A stretch of DNA of 64,000 nucleotides from assembly GCF_041320605.1 (NCBI RefSeq), contig NZ_CP166679.1, positions 2,590,001 to 2,654,000 of the forward strand, given 5' to 3'. The first letter of the stretch is position 1; the number at the start of each line of letters is the position of its first letter. The notes under the pieces are model-generated. The model did not search any database, had not been told where the DNA came from, and was given only the letters and a program-made list of their open reading frames with translations. A program made the position numbers and the translations under genes. This document shows positions 6,214-61,542 of this stretch, in pieces. This DNA comes from Arenibacter antarcticus. Its GTDB lineage: Bacteria > Bacteroidota > Bacteroidia > Flavobacteriales > Flavobacteriaceae.

Positions 6214-6246
6214 AAAAAGGGGAAAAGTTAAACAATTCCCCTTTTT
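6214..6246 (-). terminator. Terminator of rpsO
   Basis: A hairpin with GGGGAA/TTCCCC core arms extended by A/T pairs. On the minus strand it is followed by a run of seven T, and it starts a few bases past the rpsO stop. It implies pnp has a separate promoter or depends on read-through. Confidence 0.75.
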
Positions 6247-6250
6247 AAAT

Positions 6251-6520: not shown

Positions 6521-6573
6521 TCCAATATTTGTTTAATGATTTTTATGTATATGATTGTTTTTCAATCAGGGCG

Positions 6574-6581
6574 CAAAGATA
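6574..6581 (-). promoter_or_regulatory. Putative -7 box for rpsO
   Basis: Reads TATCTTTG on the minus strand, matching TAnnTTTG, 53 bases upstream of the rpsO start codon. Confidence 0.45.
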
Positions 6582-6615
6582 AACTAATTTTTAGATTCCT
6601 CGCGTAAGATTGTTG

Positions 6616-7476: not shown

Positions 7477-7499
7477 ATGTTTCTATTTAGGGTTGGCGA

Positions 7500-8567
7500 T
7501 TATAGGGTGTTCACGTTATTAAGATCCTCGAAGGCCTTTTTTAAACGTGCAACAAAAGTTTTCTCGCCTTCTCTAAGCCATACACGTGGGTCATAATGCT
7601 TTTTGTTAGGCTCATCCGATCCATCTGGGTTTCCGATCTGCGTTTGTAGGTACTCTTTTTTACCTTGGATATAGTCCCTGATTCCTTCCAAAAAGGCATA
7701 TTGTAAATCGGTGTCTATATTCATTTTAATTACTCCATAACCAATTGCCTCGCGAATTTCTTCAACTGAGGATCCTGATCCACCATGGAATACAAAATCG
7801 ATATGGTTGTGTCCCACTCCGTATTTTTTAGATACAAACTCCTGAGAATTTTTTAGAATTTTCGGCGTCAATTTTACATTTCCTGGCTTATAAACTCCAT
7901 GTACGTTACCAAACGCAGCTGCAATGGTAAATCTTGGGCTTACTTTTAATAGCTCTTCATAGGCATATGCCACCTCTTCTGGTTGGGTGTATAATTTGGA
8001 GTCGTCCACATCGCTATTGTCAACACCATCTTCTTCTCCACCAGTAATACCAAGTTCTATCTCCAAGGTCATTCCCATCTTGCTCATTCTGGCAAGATAT
8101 TTTTTACAGATCTCAATATTTTCTTCCAACGGCTCTTCCGATAGGTCAATCATATGCGAACTGTACAAAGGTTTTCCTGTTTCTTCGAAATGTTTTTCAC
8201 TGGCATCCAAAAGGCCGTCTATCCAAGGCAATAATTTCTTGGCACAGTGGTCTGTGTGTAATATAACGGTAGCGCCATAGGCTTCTGCTAGTTCATGTAC
8301 GTGCTTGGCACCTGCAACCGCTCCTAAAATAGCAGCTTGTTGATTATCGTTGGATAGTGCTTTACCCGCGTTAAATTGAGCGCCACCATTAGAGAATTGA
8401 ATAATTACTGGGGCGTTAAGACTTGCCGCCGTTTCCAAAACTCCGTTTATTGTGTCAGAACCAATAACATTGACAGCAGGTAGTGCAAAGCCTTTCTCCT
8501 TTGCGTAATTAAAAATTTTCTGAACGTCATCGCCAGTTGCAACTCCTGGTTTAATATTGTGTGCCAT
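7500..8567 (-). CDS. fbaA: Class II fructose-bisphosphate aldolase
   Basis: A zinc-dependent aldolase that splits fructose 1,6-bisphosphate to dihydroxyacetone phosphate and glyceraldehyde 3-phosphate in glycolysis and gluconeogenesis. At 355 residues it has the length of the E. coli FbaA type. The metal-binding motifs are visible: ILHTDHCAKK (His at about 110), FGNVHGVY, and VFHGGSGSS carrying the third histidine. The N-terminal segment GVATGDDVQKIFNYAKEKGF fits the family start. A TACTTTTG promoter box lies 36 bases upstream. accD follows after 23 bases. Confidence 0.96.
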   Translation of the reverse strand: MAHNIKPGVATGDDVQKIFNYAKEKGFALPAVNVIGSDTINGVLETAASLNAPVIIQFSNGGAQFNAGKALSNDNQQAAILGAVAGAKHVHELAEAYGATVILHTDHCAKKLLPWIDGLLDASEKHFEETGKPLYSSHMIDLSEEPLEENIEICKKYLARMSKMGMTLEIELGITGGEEDGVDNSDVDDSKLYTQPEEVAYAYEELLKVSPRFTIAAAFGNVHGVYKPGNVKLTPKILKNSQEFVSKKYGVGHNHIDFVFHGGSGSSVEEIREAIGYGVIKMNIDTDLQYAFLEGIRDYIQGKKEYLQTQIGNPDGSDEPNKKHYDPRVWLREGEKTFVARLKKAFEDLNNVNTL

Positions 8568-8603
8568 AATCTTATGTTGTGTAATTGATTAAAAAATATG
8601 GTA

Positions 8604-8611
8604 CAAAAGTA
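8604..8611 (-). promoter_or_regulatory. Putative -7 box for the aldolase gene
   Basis: Reads TACTTTTG on the minus strand (TAnnTTTG consensus), 36 bases before the start codon, in the 60-base gap after tamL. Confidence 0.5.
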
Positions 8612-8627
8612 AATAAAATTATCAGGC

Positions 8628-11222: not shown

Positions 11223-11228
11223 GGAGGT

Positions 11229-11236
11229 CAAAAATA
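11229..11236 (-). promoter_or_regulatory. Putative -7 box for tamL that decides its start
   Basis: Reads TATTTTTG on the minus strand and ends 6 bases before the ATG at 11222. If used, the tamL mRNA would be leaderless or nearly so, and the upstream ATG at 11264 could not be in the transcript. Confidence 0.45.
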
Positions 11237-11246
11237 CATTATTTGT

Positions 11247-12002
11247 ATGGTTGTTAAAAGCCAAATAAAATTTATAAAAAGTTTACAGCAAAAAAAACAC
11301 CGATCCCAAAATCGCTTATTTGTGGCGGAGGGGATTAAAACAGTTACAGAACTATTAGCTTCTTCCCTTATATGTCACAAAGTGTATGTTACAGATGCCT
11401 CTATTTTTGCGGGGAATCCAAGGGATGTGGAAGTGATAAGTGAAGTGGACTTAAAGAAAATGAGTGGATTGGCCACGCCTAACAAGGCGTTGGGGGTCTT
11501 CCATTTTCCAGAGACCAAGGCAATAGACTATTCTGGATGGGTAATTGCGTTGGACGATGTTCGCGATCCCGGTAATTTAGGTACTATAATTAGATTGTGT
11601 GATTGGTTTGGTATATCGGACCTGATCTGCTCTCCTAATACGGTGGATTGTTATAATCCTAAAACCCTCCAAGCAACCATGGGGTCTATCAGCCGAGTGA
11701 ATATTGTATATAAAGAGCTTATGACGGTTGTTAGGGAATCTAAATCCCCTGTTTACGGTACCTTTATGGATGGTGAGGTGGTATATAGCTCGCCTTTACC
11801 AAAGTCTGGCGTACTGATTATGGGCAACGAGGCTAACGGAATTTCCAAGGAAATTGAAACTATAGTAGATAAGCGGATTAGTATCCCCCAATTTGGGCAA
11901 AAAACAACCGATAGTTTAAATGTGGCAACAGCTACAGCAATCCTATTGAGCGAAGTGAGAAGATCGGGTATGGATTTATTCAAACGTGAAATTGACAAAT
12001 AG
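11247..12002 (+). CDS. TrmH/SpoU-family RNA 2'-O-methyltransferase
   Basis: A 251-residue SAM-dependent RNA ribose methyltransferase of the SPOUT superfamily. An N-terminal substrate-binding part (about 1-95) includes QKKHRSQNRLFVAEGIKTV. The knotted catalytic domain follows with its three hallmark motifs: DDVRDPGNLGTIIR (motif 1), NEANGISKE (motif 2) and IPQFGQKTTDSLNVATATAI (motif 3, the SAM-binding knot). The exact target (23S rRNA or tRNA position) cannot be read from sequence. Its 3' end overlaps the end of the convergent PorT-like gene by 27 bases. It starts only 24 bases from the divergent tamL start. Confidence 0.92.
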   Translation: MVVKSQIKFIKSLQQKKHRSQNRLFVAEGIKTVTELLASSLICHKVYVTDASIFAGNPRDVEVISEVDLKKMSGLATPNKALGVFHFPETKAIDYSGWVIALDDVRDPGNLGTIIRLCDWFGISDLICSPNTVDCYNPKTLQATMGSISRVNIVYKELMTVVRESKSPVYGTFMDGEVVYSSPLPKSGVLIMGNEANGISKEIETIVDKRISIPQFGQKTTDSLNVATATAILLSEVRRSGMDLFKREIDK

Positions 12003-12677
12003 TCCCCGTGTCATCATTGCATCAATATTACCCGTCCAAGGGCTGTTGGGGTCCTTGTCACGAACCAGTTCATCGTTAATGGCAAAAACCCCTCGTATAG
12101 ATGGGGAAAACTTAAAATATTCCAAGTAAAAATCGATCCCAAAACCCATTTCATAATAATAGGTGTTTTTTTTCATCCGAAACTTGCCACTGCTATTATC
12201 GTCCAAACTTTGTTCGTTGCTGCCCAGGTTTAAGGAAGTAGACGCCCCACCAATAATAAATGGTTTCCAGTTCCCCAATCGCTTGGCACTTACTTTTAGA
12301 AGTAAAGGGAAATTAATATAGGTCGATTTTACTTCCCTCATGGCATCCCTTTCATTGTTCAAACCAGGAAATCCCATATTTCTTTGATTGTAATGCAGGC
12401 CTGGTTCAAAACGAAGGTCTAAATGGTTGTTGATGCGCAGTTCGCTAATTAATCCTACATTAAAGCCAAAAGTTTTGTCAACTAAAATATCCGTATTATC
12501 TACGTTATCGTGGTATTTAAATTTGAAGTCGTATTGGTTAAAGCCTAAGAAATAACCCCAATTAAGTAGGGGCTTATCCTCGTTTTCTAAATTTAGAACG
12601 GGACTTTCATTAAATTGTGCGGACATTGTGTTGCCCATAAGCATAAAACCTATAATTAGGATAAGATTTTTTTTCAT
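11976..12677 (-). CDS. porT: PorT-family outer membrane beta-barrel protein (T9SS-associated)
   Basis: A 233-residue protein with a signal peptide (MKKNLILIIGFMLMGNTMSAQ) and alternating beta-strand patterning typical of an eight-stranded outer membrane barrel: GYFLGFNQYDFKFKY, FGFNVGLISELRINNHLDLRFEPGLHY, and a final phenylalanine-containing strand FVNFTFE. The pattern and the position beside ubiE fit PorT/SprT of the type IX secretion and gliding machinery in Flavobacterium. PorT is needed for T9SS secretion, but its biochemical role is unsettled. The assignment rests on memory of the family. A generic outer membrane beta-barrel domain protein is the alternative. The 3' end overlaps the convergent methyltransferase gene. 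Confidence 0.8.
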   Translation of the reverse strand: MKKNLILIIGFMLMGNTMSAQFNESPVLNLENEDKPLLNWGYFLGFNQYDFKFKYHDNVDNTDILVDKTFGFNVGLISELRINNHLDLRFEPGLHYNQRNMGFPGLNNERDAMREVKSTYINFPLLLKVSAKRLGNWKPFIIGGASTSLNLGSNEQSLDDNSSGKFRMKKNTYYYEMGFGIDFYLEYFKFSPSIRGVFAINDELVRDKDPNSPWTGNIDAMMTRGLFVNFTFE

Positions 12678-12774
12678 CAGCTTAGCAATGTAGGGTTATT
12701 GTAAATCCACAATTAGTTGCGTATCTATTATTTGAGATTGTGATAAAGAAAAGACCTATGGTTGCACTTGTTGA

Positions 12775-13503
12775 TTATTTGGATGCAATGTATATAGATG
12801 CTACTCCAAAGGTTTGGGGTCTATTCTCTATATCTATAAACCCAATTTTTTTCAAAATATTGTTGAACTCTTCTCCATGGGGGAAAACAGATGCAGATTC
12901 TGAAAGATAAGTATAGGCACTTCGGTCTTTAGAAAATAGTCTTCCTATGGCGGGTAAAATATATTTGGTGTAAATTTTATAGCCTTGTTTGTAAGGTGTT
13001 TTGGTGGGGTTGGAAGTCTCCAAAATAACAAAGGTGCCGTTTTGTTTAAGGACCCTATGTATTTCGGAAAGGCCCTTTTCAAGATTATCAAAGTTTCTAA
13101 CTCCAAAGGCTACTGTGATGGCATCAAAGGAATTGTCTTCAAAAGGCAGATTTTCACTATCTCCGACTATCATTTTGATAGTATTTCCCATTTTTTTCGC
13201 CGCAATTTTCTTACGCCCTACCTCCAACATCCCTGGAGAAATGTCCAATCCAATAATTTCTTTGGCCCCGGTCTCTACCATGTTTATGGCTAGGTCCCCA
13301 GTGCCTGTCGCGATATCTAAAATAGATTCAGGATTTTTTTTGCCGATGATGGCTACCACGCGTTTCCGCCACTTTATATCGATTCCAAAAGAGATAATTC
13401 TATTCAAGTCGTCGTACTTACCTGAAATGGTATCGAACATCTTTGTTACCTGCTCCTTTTTTCCAAGATTGGAATCTTTGTATGGGGTAACTTTCTTATT
13501 CAT
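12775..13503 (-). CDS. ubiE: Demethylmenaquinone methyltransferase (UbiE/MenG)
   Basis: A SAM-dependent C-methyltransferase that converts demethylmenaquinone to menaquinone; Bacteroidetes use menaquinone. The 242-residue protein shows the family N-terminus ([20 protein letters not shown]), the SAM-binding motif [15 protein letters not shown], the family motif [16 protein letters not shown], and the C-terminal segment [15 protein letters not shown]. It is 97 bases upstream of the PorT-like gene on the same strand, so the two may be cotranscribed. The name menG would describe the reaction better. Confidence 0.95.
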
Positions 13504-13791
13504 AATTGTGAAATTTTTGGTAAATATACTATATCGTGAGAAAGTTATGGGTTTAATTTTTTTTGTATTCGTCCTCCGAAGTCTTCCTTAAGTTGGTGAA
13601 TATGGAAGGCAGCCGGATAATATTATGTAGTTTTGCTACGCTTTAAGTGTAATTAAATTAAATTCATCTTACTATGTACGTTAAGATTATGATTGAATAA
13701 TAATTTGTTTTTTACGCAAGGGGAAGGATAATTCGGTAAGTTTAAGGGTAATAGGTGGACCGTAATTTTATAGGTTGGCAGATATTTAGAC
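13504..13791. other. Divergent regulatory region between ubiE and trkA
   Basis: About 290 bases with no gene I can support. A clear trkA promoter sits at its right end. I saw no canonical -7 box for ubiE. Confidence 0.5.
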
Positions 13792-13799
13792 TACCTTTG
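13775..13799 (+). promoter_or_regulatory. Promoter of trkA-trkH
   Basis: A -33 TTG at 13775-13777 and a perfect -7 box TACCTTTG at 13792-13799, a spacing typical of Bacteroidetes promoters, 28 bases before the trkA ATG. This is the best complete promoter in the window. Confidence 0.7.
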
Positions 13800-13827
13800 A
13801 ATCGTCGTTAATTAATTTAATAAACCA

Positions 13828-15177
13828 ATGAAAATTATTATTGCAGGTGCTGGTGAAGTAGGTTTTCATTTGGCCAAATTGCTATCTTACGAATCTCAGG
13901 ATATCACCCTAATAGATTGTAATAAAGATAGTCTTTCCTATGCAGATAGTCATTTGGATATCAGGGTTTTAAAGGGTGATGCTACTTCAATTTCCGTATT
14001 GAGGGATGCTCATGTGGAACGTTCCGATCTTATGATAGGGGTAACTTCCTCGGAGACGACTAATATAACCTTGTGCATGTTGGCTAAGCAATTGGGTTGT
14101 AAACGTACCATTGCTCGAATCTCCAACGCAGAATTCATAAATAATAATGGACTTATTAATTTTTCGGAATTAGGTATAGATGAGCTTATTTCCCCCGAAG
14201 CCTTAGCGGCAACGGAAATACAATTATTGTTAAATCAATCTGCATTTAATAACACTTACGAGTTTGAGGAAGGCTTGTTGATAATGGTTGGGGTATCTCT
14301 TCCAGCGGCAGCACCTTTTGTGGGTAAATCTGTGCAAGAAGCTGCTAAGATCTTCCCTGAGCTTCATTTTATGCCCATTGCAATCCAAAGGATGGGGACT
14401 CAATTTACCATTGTTCCAAGAGGTGATACCGTTTTTAAAGAGAAGGATCAAGTCTATTTTGTGATCAACAAGGAGGGAATGGATGATCTTTACAAACTTA
14501 CTGGGAAGGTTAAAAAACAAATAAAAAATGTAATGATTCTTGGCGGTAGTAATGTAGGTTTTAAGACTGCACGTGATCTTTGTAATAATAAGTTTAATGT
14601 AAAACTTATAGAAAAGAACAAGGAAAGGGCCTTTGATTTAGCGGACGATTTACCCAATGCATTAATCATTAATGGGGATGGAAGAAATGTTGAACTTCTA
14701 GATGAGGAGAATTTGGAGTCTATGGATGCCTTTGTAGCAGTGACCGGAAATTCTGAAACCAATATTATGTCCTGTTTGGTCGCTAAATCTAAAAATGTAA
14801 AGAAAACCATTGCTCTGGTAGAAAATATGGACTATTTTCAATTATCGCACTCTATTGGAATAGATACACTTCTCAATAAAAAACTGCTTGCCGCTAACCA
14901 TATTTTCAGGCATGTCCGGAAAGGGGAAGTAGTAGCGATGACCAGATTAAATAATTTAAATGCAGAGATTTTGGAGTTTAATGTAACACCTACCTCAGAA
15001 GTTAATGGTAAATTTATTAGAGAACTTCAATTCCCAAAAGAAGCTACCATTGGAGGGGTCATTAGGGGTGATAAAGGAATAATTGCCTTAGGCGGATTTA
15101 AGATCACTGAAGGTGATAGGGTAGTGGTATGTTGTTTGCCAAGTGCTATCCGTAAAATAGAAAAGCTCTTCCTGTAA
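13828..15177 (+). CDS. trkA: Trk system potassium transporter, peripheral NAD-binding subunit TrkA
   Basis: A cytoplasmic gating subunit of the TrkH potassium channel. The 449 residues are a tandem duplication of an RCK unit. The first Rossmann fold starts IIIAGAGEVGFHLAK at residue 3 and is followed by a TrkA_C domain. The second starts NVMILGGSNVGFKTA at about 233 and is followed by a second TrkA_C domain ending at the C-terminus. Acidic residues at the end of beta-2 (LIDCNKD; LIEKNKE) fit NAD(H) binding. trkH begins two bases after the stop, so the two subunits form an operon under the promoter at 13775-13799. Confidence 0.96.
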   Translation: MKIIIAGAGEVGFHLAKLLSYESQDITLIDCNKDSLSYADSHLDIRVLKGDATSISVLRDAHVERSDLMIGVTSSETTNITLCMLAKQLGCKRTIARISNAEFINNNGLINFSELGIDELISPEALAATEIQLLLNQSAFNNTYEFEEGLLIMVGVSLPAAAPFVGKSVQEAAKIFPELHFMPIAIQRMGTQFTIVPRGDTVFKEKDQVYFVINKEGMDDLYKLTGKVKKQIKNVMILGGSNVGFKTARDLCNNKFNVKLIEKNKERAFDLADDLPNALIINGDGRNVELLDEENLESMDAFVAVTGNSETNIMSCLVAKSKNVKKTIALVENMDYFQLSHSIGIDTLLNKKLLAANHIFRHVRKGEVVAMTRLNNLNAEILEFNVTPTSEVNGKFIRELQFPKEATIGGVIRGDKGIIALGGFKITEGDRVVVCCLPSAIRKIEKLFL

Positions 15178-15178
15178 C

Positions 15179-16669
15179 ATGGGATTAAATTCGAAAATCA
15201 TTTTTCACCTTATGGGACTTCTATTGCTGTGCAATGGTGGTTTTATGATTTTAGCGGCCATAGTTAGTGGAATTTACGATGATGGTGTAACCTTGGATAT
15301 AGCGCTTGCGGCAATCGTTACCATGTTAACTGGGGTGTTGTCCATGTTTTATACCCGGGAACATAAAAAAGAGGTGAAGCGGCGCGAAGGCTATATCATA
15401 GTTACCTTTGGTTGGCTCGTAATGTCGGTTTCGGGAATGTTGCCCTATCTTTTTTCCGATGCCATCCCTGGTGTGACCAATGCTTTTTTTGAAACTATGT
15501 CGGGCTATACTACCACTGGGGCGTCCATAGTAGATGATATTGAGGCTCTGCCAGAGGGAATTCTTTTTTGGAGAAGCCTAACGCATTGGATAGGTGGAAT
15601 GGGGATCATAGTATTGGCAATTGCAATTTTGCCGCTTTTAGGAATTGGGGGAATGCAATTGTTTGCTGCGGAAGCACCTGGTCCAAGCGGAGATAAATTA
15701 CATCCTAGAATTACAGATACCGCTAAAAGGCTGTGGTTAATCTATGTCACGTATACCCTAGCCGAAACCCTCTTGTTGAAATTAGCAGGGATGAACTTTT
15801 TTGACGCGATTAATCATTCCATGGCAACCCTTTCCACAGGTGGGTTTTCTACTAAAAATGCCAGTATGGCGTATTGGAACGACCAGCCGTTGATACAGTA
15901 TATAGTTATTTTATTTATGTTCCTGGCGGGTACCAACTTTGTGTTGAGCTATTATGCCTTTAAGGGGAAGGTCCAAAAAGTTATTAAGGACGAAGAGTTT
16001 AAGTTTTACTCCATTTCCGTGATTTGTTTTGCCCTTATTGCTGCATTGGTGATTTACCTAAAGGCAAATGTCATTGTTTCGGACATTGATCCGATGGTTT
16101 TCGGGGAGGCTGAAAGTGTATTTAGACATGCGTTGTTTCAGGTAGTATCGGTAATAACTACCACGGGATTCGTTACTGCAGATTTCACTTCATGGACCCC
16201 ATTCTTGACTATCTTATTCTTTGGCTTAATGTTTTTAGGAGGATCTGCTGGGTCTACTTCAGGAGGTATAAAAGTGATGAGGCATATTCTGATCATTAAG
16301 AATGGGCTGTTAGAATTTAAACGCACCATGCATATCAATGCTATTATTCCCGTCCGTTATAACAATAAGACCGTTCAAGAAAATATAGTCTACAATGTTA
16401 TTGCCTTTTTTGTCCTTTATATGTTGTTGTTCATTATTGGTTCTTTGGGCTTGGGAGCGCTTGGGCTCGATTTTGTGAGTGCTATAGGTGGTGCTGCTTC
16501 CTCCTTAGGAAATGTGGGACCTGCTTTTGGAGATCTAAATCCATTAAGTAATTATAATAGTTTACCTGCTTTTGGGAAATGGTGGTGCGGGATCTTAATG
16601 TTGTTGGGAAGATTGGAACTTTTTACAGTGCTGATTTTGATAACTCCCTATTTTTGGAAAAAGGTTTAA
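15179..16669 (+). CDS. trkH: TrkH-family potassium uptake channel
   Basis: The membrane-embedded potassium-conducting subunit, 496 residues. It has about ten or more hydrophobic segments and four pore loops of the SKT superfamily. The selectivity-filter regions are recognisable as TTGAS (about residue 114), LSTGGFST (about 220), TTTGFVT (about 327) and SSLGNVGPAFGD (about 441). MGLNSKIIFHLMGLLLLCNG is a normal start for the family. It is translationally close to trkA, with a 2-base gap. A bidirectional hairpin terminator follows. Confidence 0.96.
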   Translation: MGLNSKIIFHLMGLLLLCNGGFMILAAIVSGIYDDGVTLDIALAAIVTMLTGVLSMFYTREHKKEVKRREGYIIVTFGWLVMSVSGMLPYLFSDAIPGVTNAFFETMSGYTTTGASIVDDIEALPEGILFWRSLTHWIGGMGIIVLAIAILPLLGIGGMQLFAAEAPGPSGDKLHPRITDTAKRLWLIYVTYTLAETLLLKLAGMNFFDAINHSMATLSTGGFSTKNASMAYWNDQPLIQYIVILFMFLAGTNFVLSYYAFKGKVQKVIKDEEFKFYSISVICFALIAALVIYLKANVIVSDIDPMVFGEAESVFRHALFQVVSVITTTGFVTADFTSWTPFLTILFFGLMFLGGSAGSTSGGIKVMRHILIIKNGLLEFKRTMHINAIIPVRYNNKTVQENIVYNVIAFFVLYMLLFIIGSLGLGALGLDFVSAIGGAASSLGNVGPAFGDLNPLSNYNSLPAFGKWWCGILMLLGRLELFTVLILITPYFWKKV

Positions 16670-36119: not shown

Positions 36120-36887
36120 TTAAGGGGTACTTTGGTGTTTCTTTATGGCCTCTTTAATTTTTTCGATTCTGTTATCGGGGTCGGGATGGGTACTTTGAAA
36201 TTCGGGTACTCTGTTTGGTCCAGCGGCGGCCTTTAATATTTCCATTACCCGTATCATTTCCTGCGGGTTATAACCAGATCGAAGCATAAATAATACGCCT
36301 AGATCATCGCTTTCCAATTCGTCTTCCCTGCCATTTGTCAACAAGGTGTTCTGTCCGATACTGCCAACTATATCACCTGCATCCGCGCCTACAGTAGCCC
36401 CTACGGACACTGTTTTCCAGAAGTTGCCCTCTGCTATTCTTTCAGCGGAATGTCTGCCTATTACATGTCCGATCTCATGTCCTAATACCCCGGCCAATTG
36501 GGCCTCATTCAATTGGGAAAAGAGCGCATAGGTTACAAACACTTGTCCGCCTGGAAGTGCAAAGGCATTGATGGTCTGTGTGTCTGCCAATAAATGAAAT
36601 TCATAGTTGTAAGGGGTTTCTCTTGCAATGCTGTTGTTCACCAACTTGTTGCCTATCTGGTCTACTAGGGCTTGAAGTTTTTCATCAGGATAGAGTCCGC
36701 CATACTGCTGTGCTATTTCCGGGGCGCTCTGTAGGCCTATGGCAATTTCCTGCTCCGTACTCATATTGATATTCTGGACCCTTCCAGTATATGGATTTTC
36801 TTCCTTATTTGTGCAGCGTTGTACATAGGCAAAGGCCACAATGGCCAAGCCAATAAAAATCCTGATTTTCCAATTGCCCCTTCTCAT
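36120..36887 (-). CDS. M48-family zinc metalloprotease (periplasmic, membrane-anchored)
   Basis: A peptidase of the M48 family (BepA/YcaL-like), acting on the periplasmic side, probably in envelope protein quality control. The zinc motif HEIGHVIGRHSAER is clear, and the third ligand lies in the ELESDDLGVLFMLRSGYNP segment. N-terminal to them are MSTEQEIAIGLQSAPEIAQQ and FALPGGQVFVTYALF, both typical of the family. I place the start at 36887 (MRRGNWKIRIFIGLAIVAFA), which gives a signal/anchor at the N-terminus and 255 residues. An in-frame ATG at 36935 would add 16 non-matching residues. A cysteine after the anchor (VQRC) is a poor lipobox. It lies 82 bases after the M15 peptidase gene on the same strand. 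Confidence 0.9.
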   Translation of the reverse strand: MRRGNWKIRIFIGLAIVAFAYVQRCTNKEENPYTGRVQNINMSTEQEIAIGLQSAPEIAQQYGGLYPDEKLQALVDQIGNKLVNNSIARETPYNYEFHLLADTQTINAFALPGGQVFVTYALFSQLNEAQLAGVLGHEIGHVIGRHSAERIAEGNFWKTVSVGATVGADAGDIVGSIGQNTLLTNGREDELESDDLGVLFMLRSGYNPQEMIRVMEILKAAAGPNRVPEFQSTHPDPDNRIEKIKEAIKKHQSTP

Positions 36888-36969
36888 TGAAGTAATATGT
36901 ATATACTCTGCTGGGAAGAATTCCCCAACCTCCACCTAATGTTAGTAGAACAATGTACAAAAAAATGGG

Positions 36970-37704
36970 TTACAATAATTCAGGATTAATATCTAAAATA
37001 TTGTTTTGTATATAGCCCTTAAGAAAACCAGCGGTAAAGTTTTCCTTGCCTATAATATCTTCCTGCATAATCTGTTTAAAAATATTCTTTCTCCTAAATT
37101 CCTTTAACATAGGTTTGGAGATAGGAGCGTAGCTGTAATGCCAGGGTTCGTATTTAAACCCCTTCCTCCTCGGGTTATTGGTATACACCAAATAAAAATC
37201 GTAGGTATTGGCATTTTCGTCCATCCATTGCTTAAAAAGCTCAAATGGTCCACCTGTTTCAAATTTGTCGGGATCTAATACACTGCCGGTAATTGTTCGG
37301 TAGCCATCAATAATGTCTACATCTGTTCCCCAATGGTGCCTGCTGGTCCCTGGAATGGTAGAGTATTCTATGATCTTTTCTATAGCGGCCAATTTTGACA
37401 TGCCGCTTTTTTCAGTGTTTTGTATGTATTTGCGTTCCCATATCGCATCTTGGCGATAGAAACTCCTGTAACTGGAAACAATTTTTAAATCGATGCCGTC
37501 ACTATAAGCCGCTTTTTTCATTTCCACGAAGGCGTCATGCGCAGCCTTTTTTAGATTGATGTCCTTCCCGAACAGTTCTATGTCTTTTTTCCCCATCAAT
37601 TCATCCAGGCTATATTCAGGGTCTTGCGATAGGGTAATACCGGGCAAGATTGATAATGCCAAACTGGTATAACCGCTTTTTTTAATAAAGGATCTTCGTT
37701 GCAT
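36970..37704 (-). CDS. M15-family D-alanyl-D-alanine carboxypeptidase (VanY-like)
   Basis: A 244-residue peptidoglycan peptidase. The N-terminus MQRRSFIKKSGYTSLALSIL looks like a twin-arginine or Sec signal. The catalytic zinc domain is clear: IVSSYRSFYRQDAIWERKY, then TSRHHWGTDVDI with the first zinc histidine and aspartate, and EPWHYSYAP with the other histidine. This matches the VanY/LdcB D-Ala-D-Ala carboxypeptidase domain, which trims the cell wall in the periplasm. It precedes the M48 protease gene, and the two may form a small envelope-maintenance operon. No strong promoter was seen. Confidence 0.92.
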   Translation of the reverse strand: MQRRSFIKKSGYTSLALSILPGITLSQDPEYSLDELMGKKDIELFGKDINLKKAAHDAFVEMKKAAYSDGIDLKIVSSYRSFYRQDAIWERKYIQNTEKSGMSKLAAIEKIIEYSTIPGTSRHHWGTDVDIIDGYRTITGSVLDPDKFETGGPFELFKQWMDENANTYDFYLVYTNNPRRKGFKYEPWHYSYAPISKPMLKEFRRKNIFKQIMQEDIIGKENFTAGFLKGYIQNNILDINPELL

Positions 37705-37935: not shown

Positions 37936-39114
37936 TTATTTTTTCTTGGCCCGTGCTAGGTACAGATAGCCTTGATGTTTTATTTTAAGGTCGTTTAGGG
38001 TGATGATATAAAAATACACTCCAGAATCTAGACCCGATTTTCTATTGATAACCATCTTCCGGTTTGAAAGGCCTTCAAATTCATTGTTATAATTTTCTTT
38101 ATAATAGACCAATACACCATATCGATTAAAGATTTGTAAAAGGTTTCTCGGAGATTTGTTGATCCCTTCCAGAACTAGGTAGTCATTTATTCCGTCGCCG
38201 TTCGGGGATAAATAATAATTGCCGAGTTCCACAGTAGACAGCGTTTCGTTCATATCATTTATGCCACCAATGGTGATGGCTTCATAATCGTTAGGAATAA
38301 AGATTTCCGAACTGATATAGCCCTTGGATAGTTCCCCTTTAAAATCGGAATTCCCTAGATTTATCCACTGTTTTTCTTTTTTGCTCCAACCTACCACGGT
38401 TAGGTCGCTTAGATGTTCGCTTAATACATTAATATCGCTCCATGCGTCCCAGCTTAGAGAGGCCATTACAGGCATGTCTCCCTCCAATTTCCAAAACTCC
38501 TTGGTACTGACCCCCATAACATTTTTGTCCCTTTTTTCGGTATCGAATTTTTGGGTAACTGTGGAGGGAATATTCGGATTCTCATAAAAATAGGCACATA
38601 TGGACAAGGAGATTATATCGCTCGAGGTGACGGTCAAAGGCCGTAGGCGGTCATCATCCCCAACAGGGAAGGTAAAGGTAGCCTTGTTTATCGCGGAGGC
38701 GTATCCGTCAATTTTAGTATTGTTTCCTTCGCCCACATAAAAGGCCTGCTCCGAAAACCGAACTGCAATATCACTTCTATTTTTTGGGGTATACATATTC
38801 CCTAGGATAAAATTGAGATTGTTGTTCACTCCCACAGCCGTCTGTAGGTAGAGGCCATCGGTTATGGCCACTTCCGTATCATAAAAAACAGGGGCAAAGG
38901 CCCCGGAAACCGTAATAGGATTATTTTCATTATAGAACCCTACCAATCCTAAGTTCTGATCAAAGGTTCCGTCGTTAATAACATCTATATGAAAACCCAC
39001 CATAGCAGTCTCATGAATCTGGAGGTTACCATAGTTGTGGACTGCATTTTGACAATGTGCATGGCATGCGCCTGCAAAGATGAGTAAACTAACTATGTGT
39101 CTTACTGTGTTCAT
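37936..39114 (-). CDS. Secreted protein with T9SS type B sorting domain, partner of the giant collagen-like protein
   Basis: A 392-residue secreted protein. A signal peptide (MNTVRHIVSLLIFAGACHA) leads into a beta-rich body of about 275 residues. The last 93 residues (about 300-392) are a gliding motility-associated type B C-terminal domain: YYLSPNGDGINDYL, LLQIFNRYGVLVYY, GVYFYIITLND and a short basic end. Such domains route proteins through the T9SS, commonly with a PorP/SprF-type partner, which is absent nearby. The body is closely related over its whole length to the 382-residue protein at 56177-57325 (for example FDQNLGLVGFY against FDQNLGLAGFY, and FPVGDDDRLRPL against FPVGDATQLRPL). 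It begins 95 bases after the stop of the giant gene, with no terminator seen between them. The function is not known. Confidence 0.9.
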   Translation of the reverse strand: MNTVRHIVSLLIFAGACHAHCQNAVHNYGNLQIHETAMVGFHIDVINDGTFDQNLGLVGFYNENNPITVSGAFAPVFYDTEVAITDGLYLQTAVGVNNNLNFILGNMYTPKNRSDIAVRFSEQAFYVGEGNNTKIDGYASAINKATFTFPVGDDDRLRPLTVTSSDIISLSICAYFYENPNIPSTVTQKFDTEKRDKNVMGVSTKEFWKLEGDMPVMASLSWDAWSDINVLSEHLSDLTVVGWSKKEKQWINLGNSDFKGELSKGYISSEIFIPNDYEAITIGGINDMNETLSTVELGNYYLSPNGDGINDYLVLEGINKSPRNLLQIFNRYGVLVYYKENYNNEFEGLSNRKMVINRKSGLDSGVYFYIITLNDLKIKHQGYLYLARAKKK

Positions 39115-39209
39115 ATTATATTGAACTTGGTTTAATAATTTGTTAATGCAATTTTCATATTTTTCAATTAAGTTGTATTTATCACCTAAGTATTATTTCT
39201 GGAATACTA

Positions 39210-55328
<16,119 letters not shown>

Positions 55329-55362
55329 TGAGTGGTGTGGGTGGTTATAGCCTGTTTTACGC

Positions 55363-55370
55363 CAAAACTA
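55363..55370 (-). promoter_or_regulatory. Putative -7 box for the giant collagen-like gene
   Basis: Reads TAGTTTTG on the minus strand, matching TAnnTTTG, 34 bases before the first ATG at 55328. No clear TTG at -33. Confidence 0.4.
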
Positions 55371-55834
55371 GCTTAGAAACCGCGCGCCCCTTATATAATG
55401 TTGTGAATGCTCCAAAAAATGTGGTGTGCAACGTCCTGTGGGAATCTTGACTTTAAAATGTGTATTTAAACTGCTTCAATCCCTGCGGTTTTTATTTGTA
55501 AATAAACACTCCACTTTACTTTTGCTGCGTAGAAATAGTCAAAATGAGGAGCTATTTGTCGTTTTTGGCTATGCCAAAAAGTGCTTGATTTCTTGGTTTA
55601 ATTTGTTTAAAATAATGATTTATTTTTCCCTCTTCGGAGAGGGTTAGTCCCGATTATTATCAAATAATAAACTTCAAGATATTCACTTAATTAAACTTGT
55701 CTAATCCTAGACCAGAAAACTAGAATCCATTAATTTATTTCCAAGGATGGGAAAAGTATCTAGCGCGACTTCTAAATCGGTGTAAGAAAACACTTCATGT
55801 CGAAGTGGCCGTTGAATACATTACTATTTGTAAA

Positions 55835-55860
55835 TGGTGATTTCTAGTCCGAAATCACCA
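55835..55860. terminator. Perfect hairpin downstream of the first fibre module
   Basis: Ten-base arms (TGGTGATTTC/GAAATCACCA) with a 6-base loop, about 320 bases past the stop of the 382-residue gene. It has no T-run on either side, so its role as a terminator is doubtful. Confidence 0.35.
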
Positions 55861-56176
55861 CAATGAAGTTTTGTTACATAAAGTTTGTGTTCGGGCCCGT
55901 TCAAACAGCCAAATCTCATAGCATTATCTAATTGAATGCATCAACTAAATTTTCGTCCACCCTATCCCTATTTCTCAGCAATTGTGAAATCTCATTCTTT
56001 AGAGTTGGGCGATCCACTACTTGTTAGTGCTCTTATCACTATAATTCATTAAAACTGGCAATTACTTACTGTTTAGGAGGAGGTTATTTCCTCTAATACG
56101 CCGCCTCTGGAACTAGTAGTAAATAGTTTTCCTATTCTCGGACCTGATTGAGTTGCCTAAAATACTTTGTACTACC

Positions 56177-57325
56177 TCACCTCTCCAGATACAAAAATCC
56201 CTGATAGTCCAGATCTAGGTCCTTCATATTTACGATGTAGAAATAAATGCCGTTGGGGAGTCCCGCTTCACGGTTAATGACGAGGTTGTCTATATTTGAA
56301 AACCCAGTAAAACCGTTAGTGTAGTTCTTTTCCTCGTAGACTTTTAATCCATTGCGATCAAAGATTCGGAGCATATCATCTTGGGAGAGTTCCAGTTTCT
56401 CAATATAAAGGAAATCGTTTACCCCATCGCTGTTTGGGGTCACCAAATAATTGTTGAGTGTCAGTATTTCACTAGGGATGGCTTGGGTGGCAAAGGTGAT
56501 TGCTGCATAGTCTGAAGGCACAAAGTAGTTCGAGATAAGGAAGCCTTGATTAAGGTCGCCCACTATGGAGTTAGCCCCTAGGTTGACCCATGATTTTCCC
56601 GAAATACTCCACCCTACAGGGATAAGGGTTGCCACATCGTTTGTAAGGGCAGCTAGATTACTGTTAGAATTCCAGCTAATCTGGATGGTTGAGGAAAGAT
56701 TGGCTTGTAGATGCCAAAATTCTGTACTACTGATTTCCCCAATGGTAGTGGCTTTTTGGCTGGTATTAAAACCTTGGGGAAATTCTGTGGGGTTGGCCAC
56801 ATTGTCCCTATAATAAGCACATTTGGCAAAGGTGTTGGTGCCTTTACTGTTTAAGCTAAGTGGGCGTAGCTGGGTGGCGTCGCCTACTGGGAAAACGAAA
56901 TTTTGGAACGTATTGGCCGTGACATAACCATCTACTTTGGAGAAATCGGTTTCGCCCACATAAACGGCATTGTCCAGAAAGTTATAGTAAACGTCTTGCT
57001 GCAGTCTTGGGGTAGTAATATTCCCGATGATAAAATTAGTGTTGTTGGTAACGCCAATTCCTGTCGCTAGGGTTATTCCCTGATCGTTGGCAATTTCGGT
57101 ATCGAAAAAAATAGGCATAAAAGCACCGGATATGGCTAGGGCGGTACTGCCATAAAAGCCAGCCAAGCCCAAATTTTGGTCAAAGGCCGCATTGTTGATT
57201 AGATTGGTATGGAATCCCATCTGCCCCTCCTCGTGGATACGTATGTTACCACTATTGTACAAGGCCGTTTGGGCCTGTAACCCTAGACCTAATAATAGTG
57301 CGAGTATGGAGATGATACTTTTCAT
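56177..57325 (-). CDS. Secreted protein with T9SS type B sorting domain, partner of the 1397-residue fibre protein
   Basis: A 382-residue paralogue of the protein at 37936-39114. A signal peptide (MKSIISILALLLGLGLQAQ) is followed by a beta-rich body and a type B C-terminal domain at about 292-382 (NYLVTPNSDGVNDFL, MLRIFDRNGLKVYE, GIYFYIVNMKDLD, GFLYLER). The body aligns with its paralogue from the first strand (SGNIRIHEEGQMGFH against YGNLQIHETAMVGFH) to the end. It starts 23 bases after the stop of the 1397-residue gene, so the two are almost certainly cotranscribed. That repeats the gene order of the collagen module. Function unknown; a secretion or anchoring role for the upstream fibre is inference. 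Confidence 0.9.
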   Translation of the reverse strand: MKSIISILALLLGLGLQAQTALYNSGNIRIHEEGQMGFHTNLINNAAFDQNLGLAGFYGSTALAISGAFMPIFFDTEIANDQGITLATGIGVTNNTNFIIGNITTPRLQQDVYYNFLDNAVYVGETDFSKVDGYVTANTFQNFVFPVGDATQLRPLSLNSKGTNTFAKCAYYRDNVANPTEFPQGFNTSQKATTIGEISSTEFWHLQANLSSTIQISWNSNSNLAALTNDVATLIPVGWSISGKSWVNLGANSIVGDLNQGFLISNYFVPSDYAAITFATQAIPSEILTLNNYLVTPNSDGVNDFLYIEKLELSQDDMLRIFDRNGLKVYEEKNYTNGFTGFSNIDNLVINREAGLPNGIYFYIVNMKDLDLDYQGFLYLER

Positions 57326-57348
57326 GTTCTTGGAACTATGTATTATAG

Positions 57349-60300
57349 CTAGTTCTTTCTACTGTTTTTTTGTACTAAGGCCTTTATTTCTTCCATGTCC
57401 TTGCGAAGCGACTGCAGTGCTGTAGACAGGGATTGATTTTCTTTTTTAAGCTGATCTATTTTCTTTTCCTGCTCGATAGTATGTAGGAACAATTCCTCAA
57501 TTTTTTCCAAGTTTTGCAGGTTGGACTCACTTAAGTTCCAAAAGCCATCTTGTTTAACTTCCTCTGCCGATTTGATTCCCGGTAAGTGATGGTGCTGTTT
57601 TACAAATGCTTCAATCTCTGCCAAACTTTTAAAATTATAAGCTTCTTTTAAATCCGAATAACCCTTAAAATATTTTTGGAAGACGTAGTCGGGGATTGAA
57701 GGTATTGTATCAGTATTGGAATAAAATTGACCTGTTGCAGTAATATCTTTAGCGCTGAGGTCACCTGTTGTAACTATATTTTGATCCCCGAAATCTGGAG
57801 CTATTTTTGAGCCAGCAATGGCAGCTGCACTAGAAATGTGTACGTTCGAAATTGCACCAGTGGTAATGTCTAGGGTCACGTCGGCGAACGCCGCATTGGC
57901 GCCACCTGTCACTGTGATATCGGTAGATGAGATATCCCCGGAACCTGTAAGAGTGCTTGTGTCGACTTCGAGCGCCCCTGTTCCTGGGTTCTTGGTTATT
58001 CCCGCCCCTGCCACGTTTGCATTTATCATAGCGGCGGTTACGGCATCGTCAGCAATCTCGAGGGTCACGTTGGCGAACGCTGCATTGGCACCACCGGTTA
58101 CTGTGATATCGGTAGATGAGATATCACCGGAACCTGTAAGAGTGCTTGTGTCGACTTCGAGCGCCCCTGTTCCAGGGTTTTTAGTTATTCCCGCCCCTGC
58201 AACATTTGCATTTATCATAGCGGCGGTTACGGCATCGTCAGCAATCTCGAGGGTCACGTCGGCGAACGCCGCATTGGTGCCACCTGTTACTGTGATATCG
58301 GTAGAGGAGATATCCCCGGAACCTGTAAGAGTGCTTGTGTCGACTTCGAGCGCCCCTGTTCCTGGGTTCTTGGTTATTCCCGCCCCTGCCACGTTTGCAT
58401 TTATCATAGCGGCGGTTACGGCATCGTCAGCAATCTCGAGGGTCACGTTGGCGAACGCTGCATTGGCACCACCGGTTACTGTGATATCGGTAGATGAGAT
58501 ATCACCGGAACCTGTAAGAGTGCTTGTGTCGACTTCGAGCGCCCCTGTTCCAGGGTTTTTAGTTATTCCCGCCCCTGCCACATTTGCATTTATCATAGCG
58601 GCGGTTACGGCATCGTCAGCAATCTCGAGGGTCACGTCGGCGAACGCCGCATTGGTGCCACCTGTTACTGTGATATCGGTAGAGGAGATATCCCCGGAAC
58701 CTGTAAGAGTGCTTGTGTCGACTTCGAGCGCCCCTGTTCCTGGGTTCTTGGTTATTCCCGCCCCTGCCACGTTTGCATTTATCATAGCGGCGGTTACGGC
58801 ATCGTCAGCAATCTCGAGGGTCACGTCGGCGAACGCCGCATTGGTGCCACCTGTCACTGTGATATCGGTAGATGAGATATCCCCGGAACCTGTAAGAGTG
58901 TTTGTGTCGACTTCGAGCGCCCCTGTTACTGGGTTCTTGGTTATTCCTGCCCCTGCCACGTTTGCATTTATCATAGTGGCGGTTACGGCGTCGTCCTGTA
59001 TGGTCAAAACTCCTGCATTGTCTATCGTTGCATCTCCATTTATAGTGCGTTCCTGAGGATCGTTTAAGGCATCGCCAATGAGGAACGTTCCATTGGATAA
59101 GTTGGGTAAACCTGTCCCGTCCGTACGATCATCTGCTAAAATCCATCCACCAAGGCCCGCATTTGCAGTAATGTCCCATTTTAAAATTTGCCCATCAAGG
59201 GCTCCCATGTTGTTTAAGTCTTCGGCCAAAATTGCACCGTTGCTTATATGAGATGTGGTAATTGCTCCATCCCCTACACTAAACTTATTATCCTCAGTTC
59301 CATCCCCAATAATAGTAATTTGGTCTGCCAATTCTGTGGATCCGCCGCCGCCTGCAAGACTCGCTAATGGGATGGTCCAAATTTGCCCTGGATCAGTAAT
59401 AATTAAGTCGGTCCCAATCAGCTCAGCATTTGTTATTAATTCATTATCTGGGATTTCCCCACCACCTGAGAGTCCCGATAAATTTATACTACCATTGAAC
59501 CCCCCTCCCGAACCTGTAAAATCTAAATTGGTTCCGTTGATTTCTACATTAGAAACTACACCATCGGAACTGCCACCACTACCCACCTGGGCATCAACAT
59601 AGGCCATCGTTGCTGCATCTTGGGGATCTGTAGGGTTAGGTAAATCTTTAATTGGATTATTTCCAGCACTTGTGCCAGTGGCTAAAACACCTGCCAAATC
59701 TTGATTAGCTCCGCCAGCACTTACTGCTGCCCATCTAATTTCCCCATCGGTACTGTTTATAAGCATTTGGTTTGTTGTGGGGTTTGTGGCTAAGGGTCTT
59801 ATTTTGGTCAATTCGATAGTTGCATTCCCAATATCCTCGTTTAAAATAGTCTCATCCAAAATTTCTGTAGAGGTGATTCCACCAACCATGACCTGCAATT
59901 GGGCAGATTCTCCATCGCCGGTAATTGTTGAGTTGTCTACCAATATTGGAATTCCACCTGAGACATCAGGCAAATCGGCCCATACTACAGCGCCACTAGT
60001 TGGATCGGTTCGTAAGAATTGTCCTAAGGTTGTGGAAGATATAATTTTTAGTGGATTGGTATCACTACCGGTTCCCGTTAAGGTAATACCATCGGCTTTT
60101 ACGGTGGTTCCGCCGCCTGTCCCTTCTGGCATATTATCCCAGATGACACCTCCGGTAATTGGATCTGTTCTTAAAAATTGTCCAAATACATTGGAAGGTA
60201 TAATTTTTAGGGGATCACCACCTATTCCTGAGCCAGAAATGGTAAGTCCATCTACTTCTACTGGAGTGTCGCCGCCTCCAGAGAGCTGAGATAAATCTAC

Positions 60301-61542
60301 TGTACCACCAAATCCACCACCATTGCCCGTGAACTCTAAATCCGTTCCATTTAGCGCTACTGAAGAAATAACACCGTCTGCACCATTCCCTATCAGTGTT
60401 GATAAATCTACGTTACCAGTGAAGGCTCCATTTTCCCCGGTAAAGACCAAATTGGAGTTGTTGAGTGCTACGCCAATAATTGCTCTGTCAGGACCGCCGC
60501 CGCCGCCGCCGCCGCCAAGTCCACCAAGATCAATAGTATTGCCGCCTGAAATAGAAATTTCATTGCCCGACCTGCTTAAGGTTTGATTGTCCGTATTCAC
60601 ATAGGGAGTTAAATTTACATTGCCACCACGCTCAAGGGCTAAAATATTTTGTGCACTCAGAGATAATCTCTGATTGTCATTTACAGCCCCGCCAAGATCA
60701 CCGATTTGGTTATCCACATAGATTTTTACCGCCCTTTGAGATGGGTATAAAAGGTCTGAATTTCCTAAACTAACATCTGGAGATTTATTGGAAAGATTTT
60801 CCTTAGTGTTAAGGGCATTGGTATTGGAGGTAATTCTTTGCAACACCACATCAGCAACTCTTATGGGATCTGCAGCTATGCCCTTGCCAGAAATGGTAAC
60901 CTGGTCCGCTATGGTAGCCCCTAATTCTTCTTTGTTTACCCATAGTACCTCTCCTGTCCCACTGGTGGTCAATAATTGATTAAAGCCGCCGGGCTGAATA
61001 TCCACAGCCTGAATAGTGCCATCAATAACTTCTAGAGTCCCCACGGAATTTTCCATTAATTGCATAGCTCCTACAGAATTCTCACGTAATTGCGCTGCCC
61101 CTACAGAATTAAGTGCCAATTTAGGCTGGGTTATAGAGCCATTGGCAAGGTCTTGACCAAATATGGTGGCATCCACAATATTTTCTCCCTTTATCTGTCC
61201 TACTTTAATTTCATAAGTATTGTTATTTGGCGTAACAACAATGGTTCCATTTTCGGCAGTAATAGATAGGGAGCCAGCCACGGCATCACATACATTGGTC
61301 CATGCCGCGCCGGTATAATAATGTAGACATTGTACATCTGTATTGTATACCAAAGCACCAACAGATGGAATTATGGCATTCATTTGAGCCGTGTTTACCC
61401 GGGTGATCACCAATACCCTAGACGTGCTTTCTAACTCCAAAACCGAGCTGGGGTCAATATTTTGCGGGTTGTCCCCAATCTTTATCTGCGCCTGAACCGC
61501 TATTCCAAATAGCAGGAAAAGTAATAGAATTCGATGTTTCAT
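57349..61542 (-). CDS. Large repetitive fibre-like secreted protein, 1397 residues
   Basis: A signal peptide (MKHRILLLFLLFGIAVQAQ) precedes an N-terminal domain closely related to that of the collagen-like giant (KIGDNPQNIDPSSVLELEST; C72 and C85 spaced as C75 and C88 there). Glycine-rich beta modules resembling phage tail-fibre or trimeric adhesin shafts fill about 90-840 (repeated GTDLEFTGNGGGFGG-type and GQFLRTDP-type units). Six tandem 63-residue repeats occupy about 846-1223. The end has a YVFQKYFKGYSDLKEAYNF and HHHLPG region and a coiled coil at about 1330-1390 (LEKIEELFLHTIEQEKKIDQ), the tail found in many Bacteroidetes fibre-like proteins. No T9SS sorting domain. A run of eight Gly codons (GGC repeats) lies near 60494-60516. 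Probably trimeric and extracellular; function unknown. Confidence 0.88.
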   Translation of the reverse strand: MKHRILLLFLLFGIAVQAQIKIGDNPQNIDPSSVLELESTSRVLVITRVNTAQMNAIIPSVGALVYNTDVQCLHYYTGAAWTNVCDAVAGSLSITAENGTIVVTPNNNTYEIKVGQIKGENIVDATIFGQDLANGSITQPKLALNSVGAAQLRENSVGAMQLMENSVGTLEVIDGTIQAVDIQPGGFNQLLTTSGTGEVLWVNKEELGATIADQVTISGKGIAADPIRVADVVLQRITSNTNALNTKENLSNKSPDVSLGNSDLLYPSQRAVKIYVDNQIGDLGGAVNDNQRLSLSAQNILALERGGNVNLTPYVNTDNQTLSRSGNEISISGGNTIDLGGLGGGGGGGGPDRAIIGVALNNSNLVFTGENGAFTGNVDLSTLIGNGADGVISSVALNGTDLEFTGNGGGFGGTVDLSQLSGGGDTPVEVDGLTISGSGIGGDPLKIIPSNVFGQFLRTDPITGGVIWDNMPEGTGGGTTVKADGITLTGTGSDTNPLKIISSTTLGQFLRTDPTSGAVVWADLPDVSGGIPILVDNSTITGDGESAQLQVMVGGITSTEILDETILNEDIGNATIELTKIRPLATNPTTNQMLINSTDGEIRWAAVSAGGANQDLAGVLATGTSAGNNPIKDLPNPTDPQDAATMAYVDAQVGSGGSSDGVVSNVEINGTNLDFTGSGGGFNGSINLSGLSGGGEIPDNELITNAELIGTDLIITDPGQIWTIPLASLAGGGGSTELADQITIIGDGTEDNKFSVGDGAITTSHISNGAILAEDLNNMGALDGQILKWDITANAGLGGWILADDRTDGTGLPNLSNGTFLIGDALNDPQERTINGDATIDNAGVLTIQDDAVTATMINANVAGAGITKNPVTGALEVDTNTLTGSGDISSTDITVTGGTNAAFADVTLEIADDAVTAAMINANVAGAGITKNPGTGALEVDTSTLTGSGDISSTDITVTGGTNAAFADVTLEIADDAVTAAMINANVAGAGITKNPGTGALEVDTSTLTGSGDISSTDITVTGGANAAFANVTLEIADDAVTAAMINANVAGAGITKNPGTGALEVDTSTLTGSGDISSTDITVTGGTNAAFADVTLEIADDAVTAAMINANVAGAGITKNPGTGALEVDTSTLTGSGDISSTDITVTGGANAAFANVTLEIADDAVTAAMINANVAGAGITKNPGTGALEVDTSTLTGSGDISSTDITVTGGANAAFADVTLDITTGAISNVHISSAAAIAGSKIAPDFGDQNIVTTGDLSAKDITATGQFYSNTDTIPSIPDYVFQKYFKGYSDLKEAYNFKSLAEIEAFVKQHHHLPGIKSAEEVKQDGFWNLSESNLQNLEKIEELFLHTIEQEKKIDQLKKENQSLSTALQSLRKDMEEIKALVQKNSRKN
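57873..59006 (-). repeat. Six tandem 189-bp repeats (63 residues each)
   Basis: Unit starts on the plus strand fall at 57873, 58062, 58251, 58440, 58629 and 58818, each exactly 189 bp apart. The units come in two types in the order A-B-A-B-A-A. Units 3 and 5 look identical, and units 2 and 4 differ by about one base, so a 378-bp dimer has been duplicated. The repeat encodes a DDAVTAAMINANVAGAGITK-containing segment. Confidence 0.95.
60494..60516 (-). repeat. (GGC)n trinucleotide microsatellite inside the 1397-residue gene
   Basis: Seven to eight consecutive CCG units on the plus strand encode an uninterrupted polyglycine run. Slippage here would change the length by whole codons and keep the frame. 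Confidence 0.85.

Follow-up and report, generated by a model that had tools for sequence, protein, structure and literature searches.

Background

The cargo of the type IX secretion system (T9SS) is recognised by its own C-terminal signal, and the known systems nearest to the one considered here are the SprB/SprF pair and the orphan type B substrates of Flavobacterium johnsoniae. We analyzed a stretch of 64,000 nucleotides from Arenibacter antarcticus (hereafter the window; positions 2,590,001 to 2,654,000 of a complete, single-contig genome of 4.69 Mb) in which a very long fibre-like protein, with no T9SS sorting domain found in it, is followed by a small protein that bears a type B sorting domain, and in which this two-gene cassette occurs twice. 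Such an order, an untagged very long fibre and then a small tagged protein, suggests that the small protein exports the fibre or holds it at the surface. With a probability of roughly 0.6, we read the small protein (hereafter the partner) as the T9SS-exported base of a trimeric fibre, each cassette thus encoding a two-part surface fibre.

As far as the accessible parts of the sources go, SprB/SprF and the other type B pairs of F. johnsoniae have a giant repetitive surface protein and a type B sorting domain in common with the cassette (PMC12618676; PMC9143113). In remote relatives the likeness extends to a PorP/SprF gene directly downstream, usually together with a PorE-like gene. However, SprB bears the sorting domain itself, whereas in the cassette a separate small protein bears it and none was found in the giant, and no PorP/SprF gene is adjacent in the window. 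The orphan type B substrates of F. johnsoniae have no shuttle gene beside them, and the same holds for both window partners. Type B domains of F. johnsoniae set the final location of the protein, and its orphan type B substrates share one orphan shuttle (accessible part of PMC12618676), while type B proteins are described as binding PorP-like proteins in the corresponding part of PMC9143113. The available portions of PMC9143113, PMC12618676, PMC10994853, and PMC10202324 show or propose that type B domains exit the translocon with PorP/SprF-like carriers that hold them at the surface. Growth on fresh macroalgae induces four TIGR04131 proteins of Zobellia galactanivorans (PMC9296495).

The cassette resembles both phage tail fibres and the trimeric autotransporter adhesins (type Vc) in having a likely homotrimeric fibre with a conserved foot and a variable shaft and tip, but no YadA-type anchor was found in the giants that were scanned, and the proposed base is a separate T9SS cargo. 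The bacterial collagen-like adhesins Lcl and Scl1/Scl2 have a Gly-X-Y shaft in common with the second giant, and their export and anchoring routes differ from those of the cassette. The claim of an earlier reading made from the DNA alone (hereafter the sequence-only reading), that no system of this composition had been described, agrees with our literature search by title and start of abstract: it turned up no published pairing of a fibre lacking a C-terminal sorting domain with a partner bearing one, most subscription papers being outside the search.

Two cassettes in tandem

The genes run along the minus strand in the order giant 1, partner 1, giant 2, partner 2. Their parts are as follows (positions within the window; aa, amino acids; nt, nucleotides):

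57349-61542, minus strand: giant fibre 1, 1397 aa; starts with a signal peptide as judged by eye, and searches gave no T9SS sorting domain
61285-61488, minus strand: N-terminal domain of giant 1, 68 residues, tail-fibre-like
57865-58995, minus strand: shaft repeats of giant 1, a 189-nt (63-residue) unit present six times
57352-57690, minus strand: C-terminal tip of giant 1 with a helical-looking end (read from the sequence; coiled-coil-type Pfam matches all below threshold)
56177-57325, minus strand: partner 1, 382 aa, T9SS type B cargo-like
57152-57271, minus strand: first 40 residues of mature partner 1, the best-conserved 40-residue window
56186-56458, minus strand: CHU_C type B sorting domain of partner 1
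39210-55328, minus strand: giant fibre 2, collagen-like, 5372 aa when counted from TTG, with ATG at 55325
55062-55265, minus strand: N-terminal domain of giant 2
39531-54947, minus strand: Gly-X-Y run of giant 2, 1,713 triplets, residues 128-5266
39213-39530, minus strand: C-terminal tip of giant 2, of the class ending W-F-Q-x-D-G-x-x-W (read from the sequence and from tip classes in relatives)
37936-39114, minus strand: partner 2, 392 aa, T9SS type B cargo-like
37957-38220, minus strand: CHU_C type B sorting domain of partner 2

Giant 2 opens with TTG-ATG, and its real length may be 5371 aa. Gaps of 23 bases (giant 1 to partner 1), 848 bases (partner 1 to giant 2), and 95 bases (giant 2 to partner 2) separate the genes. 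All four open reading frames (ORFs) lie where the sequence-only reading had placed them and in the order it had claimed, and its description of their kinship held as well: the small proteins are paralogous throughout (41% identity over 386 columns, E=3e-113), the giants share an N-terminal domain (43% identity, with a C-x12-C pair in both), and the shafts are unlike, being built of the six-fold 189-nt unit in giant 1 and of unbroken Gly-X-Y triplets in giant 2.

The genome encodes 17 CHU_C proteins, only these two of which match a partner from end to end; the others among the matches listed align in the sorting domain or slightly before it. Likewise, the only two matches to the N-terminal domain in the genome directly precede the two partners, a pairing beyond chance.

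Conservation and co-divergence

In a genus set of 18 genomes, strong partner matches (330 bits or more) and domain matches are equal in number in 18/18 genomes, 33 of each in total, with two apiece in 15 genomes and one in three. Domain 1 shares contig and strand with partner 1 in 10/18 genomes and is on a separate contig in the other 8; partner 1 and domain 2 share a contig in 15/15, and domain 2 and partner 2 in 6/15. In split pairs, the partner often stands within a few kilobases of a contig end and the fibre-like ORF preceding it runs off the contig, as would be expected if repeats broke the assembly.

A scan for the family yielded 116 relatives, the best 80 of which were kept as 78 loci. 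These belong to Arenibacter, Maribacter, Zobellia, Eudoraea, Ulvibacterium, Cellulophaga, Pricia, Pareuzebyella, Pseudozobellia, Saonia, Lentiprolixibacter, Lacinutrix, Muricauda, and Aquimarina, as well as to further Flavobacteriaceae; the Arenibacter entries appear to be largely the same strains as the 18 genus genomes, so the family and genus counts are not independent. The loci yield 100 partner ORFs above 250 bits, every sequence being different. A domain-bearing giant lies directly upstream of the partner in 52/100 cases (53 with locus L131), at a stop-to-start distance, based on estimated start codons, of −22 to 36 bases for all direct pairs but two (77 and 170). Another 13/100 partners have a domain-bearing giant upstream with another ORF or masked sequence between, and for 25/100 the upstream ORF is cut by the end of the contig or locus. 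In 8/100 the upstream ORF is complete but has no strong match to the domain: two of these are masked by N (L104 and L155), four are short fibres from Arenibacter (479-592 aa) that match the domain weakly at 24-29 bits, and two, in Aquimarina (L177 and L178), are a different protein. No upstream ORF was shown for 2/100: in L131, a domain-bearing ORF of 1148 aa overlaps the partner and was hidden by the start estimate, and the other partner has just 136 bases of upstream sequence. The search among relatives that the sequence-only reading had proposed, for a partner always following a domain-bearing giant, found this adjacency across the 14 named genera and other lineages. At eight loci (L119, L128, L132, L139, L144, L158, L159, and L176) an extra fibre-like ORF of 227-592 aa, mostly with a weak N-terminal-domain match, immediately precedes the partner, and some fibres may therefore consist of two chains.

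Distances between partner bodies and between N-terminal domains are correlated over 65 different pairs (r=0.795; 0/2000 permutations as high, the highest reaching 0.135), a value that partly reflects species history. A stricter test is to swap the modules at double loci, and there the native pairing beats the swapped one at 15/15 two-module loci. In a tree of the partner bodies, some long branches of which are unsure, first and second modules are split across one branch (98/97 support, 100% of 200 bootstrap trees), which indicates that the cassette was doubled once, before these genera split. Upstream ORFs with more than 30% Gly-X-Y number 14/99, many of the 99 being fragments, and the same tip classes, as defined by simple patterns, accompany both shaft kinds. 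The comparison of sequences indicates that the domain and the partner diverged together while shafts and tips were exchanged. The idea of a conserved cassette into which different shafts are fitted is thus well supported by the equal counts in 18/18 genomes, the adjacency, the co-divergence, the duplication, and the varying shafts and tips.

The fibres

Both window giants start with a signal peptide (by eye). The sorting-domain models TIGR04131 and TIGR04183 gave no match in giant 1, the C-terminal 662 residues of giant 2, or seven giants of relatives. Pfam likewise gave no YadA-type C-terminal membrane anchor for giant 1 or for the same 662 residues of giant 2. In 300-nt windows, five unit starts of the giant 1 shaft are 93-100% alike and the sixth 69%; the repeat DNA is nearly identical between copies, which suggests recent copying. 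The Gly-X-Y run of giant 2 is unbroken, with a proline content of 0.9%, and about five times the length of fibrillar collagen; at the collagen rise of 0.286 nm per residue, its ~5,100 residues would extend for ~1.5 micrometres. The NCBIfam Lcl and Scl models match the scanned stretch of giant 2 below their cut-off, within the repeat, and match the collagen giant of L131 over the cut-off, likewise through repeats.

The N-terminal domain was modelled alone (88 residues including the signal peptide), with a predicted local distance difference test score (pLDDT) of 81 and a core above 90. Searched against BFVD, the model matched 8 viral proteins at E<=0.001, seven of them from Caudovirales phages; one match is annotated as a collagen-repeat protein, and tail-fibre or chaperone-bearing proteins follow at weaker E. 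In the PDB, where the top matches are weak but agree with one another, the CBA120 tailspikes were the best (E 0.049), accompanied by the major tropism determinant and phage hyaluronidases, and the model also resembles the trimerisation domains of collagens XV and XVIII (E 0.05 and above); unrelated proteins enter this list mostly from about E 3. Weak matches to PHROG tail-fibre families were found as well. Since the fold resembles the tailspikes and other PDB proteins named here, which are homotrimers, the giants are probably trimeric with the N-terminal domain as their foot. The two cysteine columns of the domain are both present in 58/65 pairs and both missing in 7/65, a pattern that suits a bond within or between fibre chains.

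The partners

That the small proteins are of T9SS type B was borne out by PF13585 (CHU_C), which is above its cut-off of 27 bits in both (78.5 bits in partner 1, 86.5 in partner 2), while TIGR04131 exceeds its cut-off of 35 in partner 2 alone (40.9) and falls below it in partner 1 (31.4). Both have a hydrophobic start and then a likely cleavage site before Gln, as read from the sequence. In Pfam they match nothing but CHU_C, with no sign of an Omp85-type pore such as the partner of two-partner secretion (type Vb); PHROG gave no match to the partner.

The structural model of the partner (57 alignment rows, lone chain, mean pLDDT 85, predicted template modelling score 0.67) consists almost wholly of beta structure. 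Among 325 windows of 40 residues, conservation is highest in the first, yet residues 1-29 are nearly all below pLDDT 50 when modelled alone, as would be expected of a docking segment. Foldseek found no PDB match to the body at E<=0.001 that would assign it a known fold (best E=0.005). Part of the model matches 8glk_D, a chain of the T9SS NucA substrate complex (probability 0.99, template modelling score 0.66 by target, E 0.063).

Remote relatives and links to PorP/SprF

Across the phylum, 395 genomes were scanned with profiles. Among 16 domain matches above 100 bits, the partner is on the same contig in 11 (with three ORFs between in one case), and four domains sit on another contig than the partner, the three inspected running off the contig end. 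Weak partner and domain matches were found by two independent profiles; 12 of the 29 weak partner matches have a domain match (E<=0.01) in the ORF directly upstream on the same strand, 9/29 at >=20 bits. At L240, one body protein accompanies five domain-bearing ORFs of ~700 aa. In genome G266 (L212/L213), four domain-plus-body pairs follow one another, the last body lying in a frame of 4911 aa. At L214-L217, L229, L233, and L234 the partner body lies within proteins of ~1,100-4,000 aa with no domain match nearby, which suggests fusion or a different use.

Eleven weak matches (open frames of 408-451 aa) come from the same family as the window; a PorP/SprF gene is next in 10/11, and a PorE-type OmpA/PD40 protein also follows in 9/11. 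These calls were made by Pfam in three loci and elsewhere with profiles derived from two or three of those loci. Such neighbours link the family of the partner to the type B machinery already described. Within the genus, four weaker paralogues (two in G006, one each in G009 and G014; L284-L287), which were left out of the count of 33, are 28-32% identical to the partner in a match reaching into the body. Each follows an open frame of 412-565 aa whose start is domain-like by eye, with a profile match in 1/4 (10 bits), and PorP/SprF and a PorE-like OmpA protein follow in 2/4. All of these loci are full of domain-like starts, and the other two have ITNPHIYQRV-type tails.

The A. antarcticus genome encodes 10 PorP/SprF proteins. 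Two of their genes, at C1:698093-698965 and C1:4653959-4654744, have no type B substrate directly before them and are candidate shuttles for the orphan partners of the window. Elsewhere in this genome, L278 (C1:2757000-2776000) holds, at 203-16554, a row that includes proteins of 570 and 1347 aa ending in VITNRxITYRV and continues with one of 2267 aa, a CHU_C protein of 680 aa, and then PorP/SprF. In two Aquimarina loci (L177, L178), the protein that precedes the window-type partner also has the VITNRxITYRV tail, and variants of it occur in L224, L225, L244, L284, and L286; proteins with this tail may be a second class of client.

Neighbouring genes

Next to the tandem cassettes lies the right flank:

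36970-37704 and 36120-36935, minus strand: VanY-type carboxypeptidase and M48 peptidase, respectively, outside the cassette

By eye, VanY is present in 11/11 and M48 in 10/11 of the plus-strand partner-2 loci of the genus that were inspected, and in the single-module genome G006 VanY comes after partner 1. Ten other ORFs of the window (1-36000) were searched with Pfam and include a sigma-70 factor, PNPase, an Omp85 protein, TrkA/TrkH, aldehyde dehydrogenase, NqrA, an NqrF-like reductase, ApbE, and phosphoglycerate mutase; no phage-like gene was found by Pfam among these ten or the flanking VanY, M48, and S51 genes. A scan of both strands of 55300-57400 singled out no clear promoter or terminator, with 11 promoter-like signals (5.2 expected) and 4 terminator-like signals (2.2 expected).

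Proposed role and alternative explanations

A role of the cassette in secretion or anchoring, as proposed in the sequence-only reading, is what we infer. In the arrangement proposed here, the giant would be exported by Sec, trimerise through its tail-fibre-like N-terminal domain, and present a variable shaft with an exchangeable C-terminal tip. The partner, through its type B signal, would leave by the T9SS translocon, be collected by a PorP/SprF-family shuttle encoded elsewhere, and stay on the surface, where it would grip the fibre by its N-terminal foot and leave the tip pointing outward; the route of the giant across the outer membrane is one that we infer within this model. A fibre with its tip at the C-terminus could hardly carry a C-terminal sorting domain and still point that tip outward, a problem which a separate, signal-bearing base gripping the foot would solve, and for this reason the base is favoured.

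The linkage and co-divergence of the two genes would also fit a dedicated chaperone, and the partner might be an assembly factor or cap, borne to the surface by the T9SS, which helps the giant to fold or trimerise there and is not a permanent base. One partner serving several fibre genes, as may be the case at L240, and the extra short fibre genes before the partner at some loci agree with such a factor, and the accessible part of PMC9143113 speculates that PG1035 may cap PorP. We nevertheless hold it to be unlikely, as the type B proteins treated in the available parts of PMC9143113 and PMC12618676 are held on the surface by PorP-like proteins, and the PorP/SprF and PorE-like genes beside the remote relatives suit a base better than a cap. 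Alternatively, partner and fibre could be independent surface proteins encoded in one operon that never touch: co-regulated adhesins could stay linked, each of the two proteins has a signal peptide of its own (by eye), and a protein of another kind lies upstream at the Aquimarina loci and at some Flavobacterium-like ones. This seems quite improbable to us, because 68 residues of the giant co-diverge with the partner despite the change of shaft and tip and native pairs are kept at 15/15 double loci, neither of which is expected of mere neighbours, although inheritance of the locus as a block with internal exchange of repeats could still yield the co-divergence. Finally, the resemblance of the domain to viral fibre proteins (the 8 BFVD matches at E<=0.001) and to PHROG tail-fibre families, the latter weak, could mean that the giants are tail fibres derived from a phage, or that they belong to a prophage or phage-like particle. 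The ten other window ORFs scanned are, however, housekeeping or metabolic and none is phage-like, the partner lacks PHROG matches but has a T9SS domain, and the cassette is kept across genera; a phage origin is largely refuted by this genomic context and is in our view highly improbable.

Several results weigh against the partner as a surface base. The domain is commoner than the partner, occurring in at least 67 against at least 31 of the 395 genomes (both lower bounds, as the tool scored only some of the first-look candidates), which would make the domain a general module and the partner a specific part, and one of the 16 strong domain matches (G199:C12, 315 aa) is complete without a partner near it. 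The sequence-only reading had named, as evidence against itself, a small-protein family lying mostly away from fibre genes; this was not found for the close relatives, but 17/29 of the remote matches have no domain match directly upstream. Together with the Aquimarina partners L177 and L178, which are preceded by a different protein without the domain, this means that the partner body may accept other clients or have another use. A PorP/SprF gene adjoins neither window partner, and a PorP/SprF profile derived from three remote loci gave no match in the available sequence of the 78 family loci. The negative result for T9SS signals in the nine giants did not cover type C signals, which were not searched, and the PDB matches of the domain are weak even at their best (E=0.049). 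The low confidence of partner residues 1-29 may reflect a shallow alignment or a segment ordered in an oligomer only. A disulfide between foot and partner was considered and rejected, as the cysteines of the domain do not covary with the single cysteine of the partner (Fisher p=0.33).

More tentatively, T9SS secretion might take place in trans, with fibres lacking the sorting domain crossing the outer membrane only when their N-terminal domain is bound by the small type B-bearing protein. The same carrier family would then also serve proteins of another kind that lack a sorting domain, e.g., those ending in ITNRxITYRV; we regard this as possible but rather doubtful.

Significance

If the small protein carries or bases untagged fibres, some of the largest proteins that marine flavobacteria make are missing from lists of T9SS surface proteins, and certain small type B "putative adhesins" may serve as bases for the product of the preceding gene. 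It would also suggest a way in which a trimeric fibre can be anchored by its N-terminus, its tip facing outward, and a collagen with an unbroken Gly-X-Y stretch of ~5,100 residues displayed. Should secretion in trans prove true, Bacteroidota would have a two-component platform for the export and display of any shaft and tip.

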